From Phaeobacter sp. B1627 (lineage in GTDB: Bacteria > Pseudomonadota > Alphaproteobacteria > Rhodobacterales > Rhodobacteraceae), in NCBI RefSeq assembly GCF_006265095.1, contig NZ_VCNK01000042.1:1-32747 (forward strand): 32,747 nt of DNA, given 5' to 3'. Made by a program: the position numbers and the translations under genes. The notes below the pieces were generated by a model that made no database searches, was not told the origin of the DNA, and saw nothing but the letters and a program-made list of their open reading frames with translations. How positions within the stretch are numbered: the first letter of the stretch is position 1; each line of letters opens with the position of its first letter. Positions 12,831-13,762 of this stretch are shown one piece after another.

Positions 12831-12873
12831 GGCGGTGGGGCCGCAGGGGCATAGCCCCTGCGGCCCCACCGCC
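12831..12873. terminator. 20-bp perfect GC-rich inverted repeat with 3-base loop
   Basis: Positions 12831-12850 and 12854-12873 are exact reverse complements around ATA. The stem is very GC-rich (GGCGGTGGGG at its base, CAGGGGC next to the loop). It sits between convergent transcripts (uvrD and ccsR). Without a T-run it may instead be a repeated extragenic palindrome or a Rho-assisted stop. Confidence 0.5.
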
Positions 12874-12878
12874 ACCCT

Positions 12879-12930
12879 CCGAATCCACATCCCGAATCCA
12901 CATCCCGAACCGACATCCCGAATCCACCCC
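12879..12930. repeat. Tandem repeat, 4 x 13 bp
   Basis: Four adjacent units of CCGAATCCACATC, the third with two changes and the last ending CCCC. They follow the large inverted repeat. The 12782-13091 stretch holds only the two hairpins and this repeat; I see no gene there. Confidence 0.8.
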
Positions 12931-13091
12931 CTGACATGAAAATCAGTCGGCAATCCTGCGCCGGTCTCTGTGCGCTGACCTCAATACCCGCCTGCGCGGT
13001 GACGCGGCGCAGGCGGGAACCGCAGCTGCATGTCCAGACCGGACTGCAGACCTGGTTTGCCGACACTTCTGATGAAAAGGGGGGGGGTAAA

Positions 13092-13139
13092 ACAGAAAAC
13101 GGCGGCACCCAGGGAGGAGGAGGGGTGCCACCGTTCTGT
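13092..13139 (-). ncRNA. ccsR: CcsR-type small RNA hairpin, fourth (distal) copy
   Basis: The stem GGCACCC/GGGTGCC (13104-13110 with 13123-13129) extends outward through CGG/CCG and ACAGAA/TTCTGT with a small bulge. On the minus strand the loop reads CTCCTCCTCCCT and contains CCTCCTCCC. This is the last of four such hairpins downstream of a DUF1127 gene. It is followed on the minus strand by a stretch rich in T and C (TTTTACCCCCCCCTTTTC), which may be where the transcript ends. Confidence 0.8.
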
Positions 13140-13146
13140 CAAACAC

Positions 13147-13171
13147 CGGATTAAAGGGAGGAGGAAATCCG
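13147..13171 (-). ncRNA. ccsR: CcsR-type small RNA hairpin, third copy
   Basis: A 6-bp stem CGGATT/AATCCG encloses a 13-base loop that on the minus strand contains CCTCCTCCC. It has the shortest stem of the four. A second small GC hairpin (CCGGC with GCCGG around 13184-13198) separates it from the second copy and could mark a processing boundary. Confidence 0.75.
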
Positions 13172-13206
13172 ATGTATCTGTGCCCGGCTCGGGGCCGGTA
13201 TTAAGT

Positions 13207-13240
13207 GCGGTGGCATCAGGGAGGAGGAAGATGCCACCGC
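13207..13240 (-). ncRNA. ccsR: CcsR-type small RNA hairpin, second copy
   Basis: An 11-bp perfect stem GCGGTGGCATC/GATGCCACCGC has a 12-base loop with CCTCCTCCC on the minus strand. The stem sequence is unrelated to those of the other copies while the loop is the same. That pattern means the exposed loop is the functional part. Confidence 0.82.
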
Positions 13241-13246
13241 GTAGGA

Positions 13247-13278
13247 CAGGTCCTTAAGGGAGGAGGAGAAAGGACCTG
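13247..13278 (-). ncRNA. ccsR: CcsR-type small RNA hairpin, first copy (next to DUF1127)
   Basis: A 9-bp perfect stem CAGGTCCTT/AAGGACCTG has a 14-base loop with CCTCCTCCC on the minus strand. It starts 12 bases after the DUF1127 stop codon, so it is probably cut from the same transcript. In Rhodobacter sphaeroides, CcsR1-4 are co-transcribed with ccaF1 from an RpoH-type promoter and act in the oxidative-stress response (known from that species; inferred here). The pyrimidine loop is complementary to Shine-Dalgarno-like GGGAGGAGG. Confidence 0.82.
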
Positions 13279-13290
13279 ATCTCGGTTAAC

Positions 13291-13509
13291 TCAGTTTGCG
13301 CCGTAGGCGGCCTCAAGGGCGACGCGCTTCAGCATGGAGCGGTTCAGCCCCAGGTCTGCAAGATCACGGGACGAAAGCTCGTTCAGCTCGTTCAGTGTCT
13401 CGCGATATACACGGTATTGAGCGAATTTCTCACGGGCCACCTGAAGCATATGCGCGACGCCGCCAGCTGCAAAAGTCTTTTGTGCGTTGATCGAATTCAG
13501 GGTTGCCAT
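13291..13509 (-). CDS. ccaF1: Small DUF1127 protein (CcaF1-like)
   Basis: 72 residues. The C-terminal half has the DUF1127 signature: YRETLNELNELSSRDLADLGLNRSMLKRVALEAAYG, an arginine-containing helical motif seen in many small alphaproteobacterial proteins. In Rhodobacter sphaeroides the homologue encoded ahead of ccsR1-4 is CcaF1, an RNA-binding protein that affects maturation of those RNAs. The same order (protein gene, then four CCUCCUCCC hairpins on the same strand) is present here, which supports orthology. The start at 13509 is the only one that gives the family length. The 5' leader is about 70 bases. Confidence 0.93.
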   Translation of the reverse strand: MATLNSINAQKTFAAGGVAHMLQVAREKFAQYRVYRETLNELNELSSRDLADLGLNRSMLKRVALEAAYGAN

Positions 13510-13581
13510 CGTTACGTCTCACTCGTGTCTGTTCGTCGGGGCCAGACGCCCGTCAGTGTGTTGTCGTCTCTGTTGATCCTT

Positions 13582-13609
13582 AAGATAAACGAATGCTGCA
13601 AACGCACAA
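13582..13609 (-). promoter_or_regulatory. Candidate promoter of ccaF1-ccsR
   Basis: On the minus strand TTGTGC (13604-13609), 16 bases, then TATCTT (13582-13587). The TTG-led -35 and pyrimidine-ending -10 are compatible with the RpoH-type promoter that drives this unit in Rhodobacter sphaeroides. The assignment to a particular sigma factor is inference. Confidence 0.4.
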
Positions 13610-13762
13610 TCCGGGAAATGGTCATTTCTGCTATGCAGCAAGTGCATGGGTATAACCGATTATTTTCCGATAACGCCCAAAATGAATGCGCGAATATTTC
13701 TGAATGGTGTATCTGTGAGCAATATTTGACCGAACTCGCCGTTACCGCTGCCATTTTGGCAC

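Follow-up and report, generated by a model that had tools for sequence, protein, structure and literature searches.

A ccaF1-ccsR operon of Phaeobacter sp. B1627 with two predicted CcsR-type RNAs and probable activation by an LsrB/VtlR-like LysR regulator through two boxes

In Rhodobacter sphaeroides, the small DUF1127 gene ccaF1 precedes, on the same strand, a tandem array of two-hairpin RNAs with CCUCCUCCC in their loops, CcsR1-4 (RS0680a and homologs; Rfam RF02791), and a 3′ terminator hairpin. RS0680a has two stem-loops, with the motif in each (PMC3927594). The ccaF1-CcsR precursor is processed by RNase E together with CcaF1, which is described as an RNA-binding protein (PMC10253847). Small DUF1127 proteins bind PhoR, and CcaF1 complements (PMC12501420). 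Rhizobia possess NfeR1 (ar14; RF02344), a three-hairpin sRNA of 115 nt transcribed from its own promoter, which also displays CCUCCUCCC loops and silences ntrB through base pairing; its gene in Sinorhizobium meliloti is preceded at −72 to −60 by an LsrB box, TGCA-N6-GCAT (PMC10746234). The LsrB/VtlR regulon of Agrobacterium, Sinorhizobium and Brucella includes abcR sRNAs and small DUF1127 proteins.

Here we describe a locus within a window of 32,747 nucleotides, the whole stretch of DNA that was analyzed, from Phaeobacter sp. B1627 (contig NZ_VCNK01000042.1). The locus is an operon of the ccaF1-ccsR (CIN1/cuckoo) kind, a type already described of which the window provides a further example. 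We consider it probable that it yields two CcsR-type RNAs and is activated by an LsrB/VtlR-like LysR regulator acting at two boxes.

The DUF1127 gene and its hairpin array

An initial annotation had described a DUF1127 gene with four same-loop hairpins downstream on one strand, and this was confirmed by motif sites, folds and the domain search. The 72-aa product of 13291-13509 matched PF06568 (E 2.2e-12, 46.9 bits), and the four CCTCCTCCC sites of the window all lie on the minus strand, at 13258-13266, 13219-13227, 13156-13164 and 13112-13120, so that gene and CCUCCUCCC-loop hairpins share one transcript direction. The features downstream of the promoter are listed here in transcript order.

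13291..13509, minus strand: DUF1127 gene (ccaF1-like), 72 aa, first gene of the operon (ORF and PF06568)
13202..13290, minus strand: predicted first CcsR-type sRNA, hairpins 1 and 2 (Rfam CcsR1, RF02791, model positions 1-83 of 83, 40.7 bits, E 6.4e-7)
13247..13278, minus strand: hairpin 1, the weaker of pair 1, 9-bp stem, CCUCCUCCC in the loop (motif and fold)
13207..13240, minus strand: hairpin 2, the strong one of pair 1, 11-bp stem (fold; pairing kept across relatives despite letter changes)
13184..13198, minus strand: small motif-free linker hairpin between the pairs (fold z −1.0, not significant alone)
13094..13178, minus strand: predicted second CcsR-type sRNA, hairpins 3 and 4 (Rfam CcsR1, RF02791, model positions 1-83 of 83, 30.7 bits, E 5.7e-4)
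13143..13175, minus strand: hairpin 3, the weaker of pair 2, 10-bp stem with G-U (fold)
13096..13137, minus strand: hairpin 4, the strong one of pair 2, apparent intrinsic terminator (fold and T-rich stretch after it)
13086..13102, minus strand: T-rich tail at and past the end of hairpin 4 (sequence)

Two plus-strand genes, one for a UvrD-type helicase and one for a NUBPL/ParA-type ATPase, are the neighbors of the operon. Directly past the helicase gene we noted a very strong inverted repeat, GGCGGTGGGGCCGCAGGGG-CATAG-CCCCTGCGGCCCCACCGCC (12831-12873), as well as short direct repeats, each about 13 nt long (CGAATCCACATCC and variants), at 12880-12928. A run of nine G on the plus strand (13079-13087) directly follows the terminator tail of the operon.

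A chance origin of the motif was rejected by three sets of controls. Shuffled windows contained 0.56 CCTCCTCCC sites on average, and 1 of 100 shuffles reached four. The 4.35-Mb genome has 36 sites, of which 30 were retrieved with their loci for a stem check; stems of at least 8 bp occurred at 2 of the 26 retrieved sites outside the locus (L023 and L025), and the four sites of the locus all have at least 9 bp. Across 60 loci, i.e., the window and 59 relatives, motifs were counted up to 1.1 kb from where the DUF1127 match starts. Of 234 such motif sites, 203 have a stem of 6 bp or longer, versus 9.4% of 4,680 flank-shuffled controls. The number of exact motifs per locus ranged from 0 to 11, with none at 8 of the 60. 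Large tandem expansions, of 10 to 14 motifs, were observed at L068, L080, L213 and L239, where the similarity of the repeated units suggests duplication of the unit.

In transcript order, the contiguous stems of the four hairpins measure 9, 11, 10 and 15 bp with G-U pairs allowed. Folded alone, they reached −13.1, −22.6, −5.7 and −28.4 kcal/mol (z −4.3, −7.8, −1.5 and −5.7). Hairpin 3, trimmed to 30 nt, keeps a weak 6-bp stem, and 14 of 200 shuffles folded equally well, making it not significant alone. Among relatives, the stems vary in letters yet stay paired: at every one of nine positions, 31 distinct second-hairpin stems use four or more kinds of pair, and swapping arms among them lowered pairing to 53%, compared with 100% for their own arms, a value set by construction through the choice of stems of at least 9 bp.

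Hairpin 4 looks like a terminator because a T-rich stretch follows it; a terminator scan of the window with a loop limit of 8 called one unrelated site, hairpin 4 not being among its calls. The linker hairpin reads CCGGC...GCCGG, with similar sequences in close relatives (linkers of 12 loci compared), and could mark a processing site.

The number of RNAs

The Rfam CcsR1 model covers 83 nt and two hairpins, and it fits the locus twice at full length. Both scores lie below the gathering score of 65.3, and the locus is accordingly not filed under RF02791. At the gathering score, Rfam returned tRNA alone for the whole window, the CcsR1 matches having come from a relaxed search of five loci. At E ≤ 0.001, CcsR1 matched in 163 of 198 Rhodobacteraceae genomes, whereas 9 of the 198 passed the gathering score. 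Genomes with a match have between 1 and 10 of them, that of the window having 2. One of 14 control genomes (Thermus) gave a match, below the gathering score.

The spacing of the motifs in the window, 39, 63 and 44 nt, alternates as in relatives, whose motif distances are mostly 37-47 and 60-82 nt (one of 22 and eight above 100 among the 60 loci). When motifs were paired by distance in these loci, the second hairpin was the more stable one in 92 of 97 pairs. The graded hairpin stability proposed earlier is plausible in this form. Given the two CcsR1 fits and the weak-strong pairs spaced as in relatives, the window appears to hold a small, two-unit version of the array.

The initial annotation had counted four RNAs. 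Separate single-hairpin RNAs would agree with the presence of four complete motif-bearing hairpins, three of which fold significantly alone. We regard this as improbable, because two matches to the two-hairpin CcsR1 model span the locus, relatives show alternating spacing and stem strength, and RS0680a is described with two stem-loops. The four hairpins are better read as two pairs, and the locus most likely yields two CcsR-type RNAs, each made of a weak and a strong hairpin. Two is therefore the number of RNAs to expect before any RNA sequencing. The assignment to the ccaF1-ccsR/cuckoo kind of operon stands, whereas its description as a complete unit equal to CcsR1-4 does not: the R. sphaeroides operon has four sRNAs, and the window most likely two, with two CcsR1 matches and four motifs.

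The promoter region and a candidate regulator

The region upstream of the gene contains the following candidate elements, with positions relative to a start near 13575 that is estimated from the putative −10.

13633..13646, minus strand: distal box, exact TGCA-N6-GCAT, about −71 to −58 with TATCTT taken as the −10; equals the S. meliloti nfeR1 LsrB box
13623..13637, minus strand: stretch TGCATAGCAGAAATG, 11 of 15 positions as in the reported VtlR motif, 4 mismatches
13604..13609, minus strand: putative −35, TTGTGC, kept in relatives
13593..13606, minus strand: proximal box, TGCG-N6-GCAT, with a single mismatch; lies 40 bp from the distal box, at about −31
13582..13587, minus strand: putative −10, TATCTT, same or close forms in relatives

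Upstream of the gene, relatives share a conserved block of about 70 bp (22 loci aligned, with the row of L055 misaligned through a start codon set too far upstream). The most conserved promoter element is the tandem LysR-type box, which the initial annotation does not mention. Of two strict promoter patterns read from the block, at least one is present in 44 of 60 loci and neither in 16. In the 350 bp preceding the DUF1127 match, 48 of the 60 loci have an exact TGCA-N6-GCAT and 12 lack it; this corresponds to 72 sites in 21,000 bp of upstream sequence versus 5 in 244,002 bp of flank, the flanks used as control for box and 15-mer counts being those of the same loci. Two or more exact boxes were found at 23 loci, 40 bp (19 loci) or 39 bp (4 loci) apart, one locus having an extra overlapping site. 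An extended form of the box was present in 47 of 60 ccaF1 regions and nowhere in 244.6 kb, a contrast that is not independent, the pattern having been read off the same loci.

We also searched with a slightly relaxed tandem pattern that accepts TGCR in place of TGCA and any base at the final position of the second box. It was found in 75 of 100 Rhodobacteraceae genomes, once in that of the window, at the window itself; read backward, it gave 6 hits in 4 genomes. Thirty loci were fetched for context, 28 of them placed by script. Each of the 22 promoter-type tandem sites, that of the window included, is followed by a DUF1127 gene (19 sites), the motif (20 sites) or both; seven other tandem-box sites have neither.

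The VtlR motif was compared as the 15-mer quoted in PMC12595884. Within 2 mismatches, it was found in 19 of 60 upstream regions (two on the other strand) versus 0 of 624 control tiles, and within 3 mismatches, on either strand, in 34 of 60 versus 9 of 624. The stretch in the window has 4 mismatches, a level reached by 71 of 624 tiles and not telling alone. A published LsrB/VtlR form, GCAT-N3-TG-N3-T (PMC7486931, PMC8844928), is missed in the window by one base, the sequence reading GCAT-AGC-AG-AAA-T, with AG for TG. Because of this mismatch, we treat membership of the operon in the LsrB/VtlR regulon as predicted and do not file it there; for the window, the case rests on conservation in relatives. 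The distance of the distal box resembles that in nfeR1, −71 to −58 by our own −10 assignment compared with the published −72 to −60.

A box pattern derived from the window gave four sites in the genome within one mismatch (the backward-read control, 57 hits versus 4, was poor owing to base composition, and the count was not used). One of these sites, G000:C92:82218, has a LysR gene on one side and an sRNA on the other. At this place (G000:C92:82130-83184; L150) we observed an LsrB/VtlR-like LysR gene, a SorX/SorY (AbcR-like) sRNA directly downstream and the box between them. The sRNA scored 50.5 bits with Rfam SorX, above the gathering score of 46.6, and 56 bits with SorY, below that of 111. 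We call it SorX-like only, because SorX of R. sphaeroides derives from the ompR-1 3′ UTR (PMC8625941).

Of 30 alphaproteobacterial trxB loci, 14 have a trxB-adjacent LysR to which the protein encoded there is 35-49% identical, and one further match was at 25% (loci were available for 30 of 53 matching genomes). In a reverse search with one alphaproteobacterial trxB-adjacent LysR, the gene scored 289 bits and the next LysR of the genome 121. Orthologs at E ≤ 1e-60 were found in 58 of 61 Rhodobacteraceae genomes. NCBIfam returned 56 families for the protein; among the best 25 of the 56, none was over its cut-off and none was named LsrB or VtlR. The use of trxB as a signpost to lsrB was abandoned for this genome, in which no LysR gene adjoins trxB and the lsrB-like gene, on a different contig, was reached through the box.

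In the 30 Rhodobacteraceae loci fetched, CCUCCC with a T-run follows the lsrB-like gene in 29. The exact box occurs in the lsrB-sRNA region of 19 (absent from 11), versus 1 site in 75 kb of flank, and the VtlR 15-mer within 3 mismatches in 6 of 30 regions versus 0 of 300 tiles. The extended box, again a pattern from the same loci and not independent, was present in 18 of 30 versus 0 in 75.9 kb. This lsrB-sRNA order resembles the vtlR-abcR order of Agrobacterium. The system thus shares with the LsrB/VtlR regulon a LysR gene with an adjacent AbcR/SorX-like sRNA and a similar box ahead of a DUF1127 gene; it differs in that the window joins CCUCCUCCC RNAs and a DUF1127 gene in one operon and that lsrB is not beside trxB. 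From these comparisons of sequence, we infer control of ccaF1-ccsR by the LsrB-like protein.

The five other DUF1127 genes of the genome showed no convincing box. An exact TGCA-N6-GCAT is present in three of the five 3-kb loci, not at the conserved place, and the 550 bp before the five domains match the VtlR 15-mer with 4 or 5 mismatches. One of these loci (G000:C64:47386-47637; L034, L152, L278) holds a second DUF1127 gene, followed by a single CCUCCUCCC hairpin with an 8-bp stem and by a hairpin resembling a terminator; it adjoins rplO and, by reading of the translation, comes after rpmD. We rejected it as a conserved system, since rplO lay nearby in 1 of 18 other fetched loci, which lacks the exact motif, and the rpmD pattern matched nowhere.

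Loop targets, rival readings and significance

The initial annotation was right in calling the loops anti-Shine-Dalgarno-like. It had further proposed that they titrate many mRNAs, which is unsupported for perfect 9-mers before ATG. A genome search for GGGAGGAGG-N2-12-ATG gave 8 sites versus 3 in backward controls; 2 of the 8 lie inside the locus itself, and two of the six others precede open frames of just 3 and 6 codons. These small numbers give no support to mass titration by perfect 9-nt pairing. NfeR1 has CCUCCUCCC loops too, and Rfam ar14 (RF02344) scored 39.4 bits at the locus, below its gathering score of 58.8; unlike NfeR1 with its own promoter, the RNAs of the window would be part of the DUF1127 transcript.

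The lack of clear enrichment of perfect ribosome-binding-site complements would also suit an array acting in cis, as a 3′-UTR platform for the DUF1127 protein or for stability or termination, with no targets in trans. The terminator-like last hairpin and the reported RNA binding of CcaF1 and its action on CcsR maturation (PMC10253847) point the same way. We nevertheless find this very improbable: the loop sequence is constant while the stems vary, which a purely structural role would not need, and NfeR1, with the same loops, was reported to silence ntrB by base pairing (PMC10746234). A different objection concerns the promoter. The operon might be a plain RpoHI/RpoHII stress operon as in R. 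sphaeroides, for which PMC10253847 states such a promoter, with the boxes binding another factor or idle under stress. The −35 element of RpoHI/HII promoters has TTG as its conserved triplet (PMC3441632), and both TTG and the TAT of the −10 fit the described RpoH elements (PMC10673084). The stress-type promoter of the initial annotation is to this extent compatible with the sequence, although the core, TTGTGC-N16-TATCTT, would suit RpoH as well as sigma70. A sigma70 scan of the window found no promoter.

Of five top-scoring CcsR1 loci, four read CCATGTT (L213-L216) and one TCATGTT (L217) at the presumed −10, which counts toward the RpoH reading; the window clade has TATCTT. Box-like sequences lie upstream in both groups. 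In the set of 30 loci to which L213-L217 belong, a text pattern for DUF1127 recognized the gene in 10, of which 9 have an exact box; this count excludes the remaining 20 loci. The presumed −10 thus varies between clades while the boxes stay, and a change of sigma factor at the core is possible. Moreover, the best-conserved portion of the promoter includes boxes that lie upstream of the core and agree with published LsrB/VtlR sites. Control by RpoH with no part for the boxes is for these reasons unlikely. RpoH and LsrB may both act, since RpoH control is published for R. sphaeroides and TTG and TAT are present.

Under the reading we prefer, LysR activation of an operon with two RNAs, an LsrB-type regulator at the tandem boxes (about −71 and −31) would recruit polymerase to TTGTGC-N16-TATCTT. 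The activator is most likely the LsrB/VtlR-like LysR of the genome, perhaps with an RpoH- or sigma70-type core. The resulting single minus-strand transcript would encode the 72-aa DUF1127 protein and, in its 3′ part, the two CcsR-type RNAs, with the last hairpin terminating it. Release of the two RNAs would then fall to RNase E and the DUF1127 protein, as described for R. sphaeroides, and the loops of these RNAs, acting like those of NfeR1, would lower translation by base pairing with purine-rich ribosome-binding sites. A further role of the DUF1127 protein may be to act on proteins, as the PhoR-binding members of its family do.

In the literature searched, we found no link between ccaF1-CcsR and LsrB, although the primary CcsR, CcaF1 and cuckoo papers lie outside this coverage and may mention it. 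CcsR was never found alongside NfeR1, the combination of LysR, DUF1127 and Rhodobacteraceae gave nothing, and SorX appeared with neither LsrB nor VtlR among the matches listed. If the promoter reading is true, the CcsR RNAs gain an activator unnamed for them in that literature, and the CcsR, NfeR1 and AbcR/SorX sRNA families are tied to one regulator. It would also count against LsrB being confined to Rhizobiales; LsrB has been called unique to that order, from selected species (PMC11975290), and the present data speak against this.

We lean toward a broader view, that an LsrB/VtlR LysR driving anti-Shine-Dalgarno sRNAs (of the AbcR/SorX and CCUCCUCCC types) and DUF1127 proteins forms a single ancient alphaproteobacterial circuit that would predate the split between rhizobia and Rhodobacteraceae, with two of its outputs fused in ccaF1-ccsR of the latter. 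If so, what is known as an RpoH stress operon would also be a LysR-activated redox or nutrient operon.
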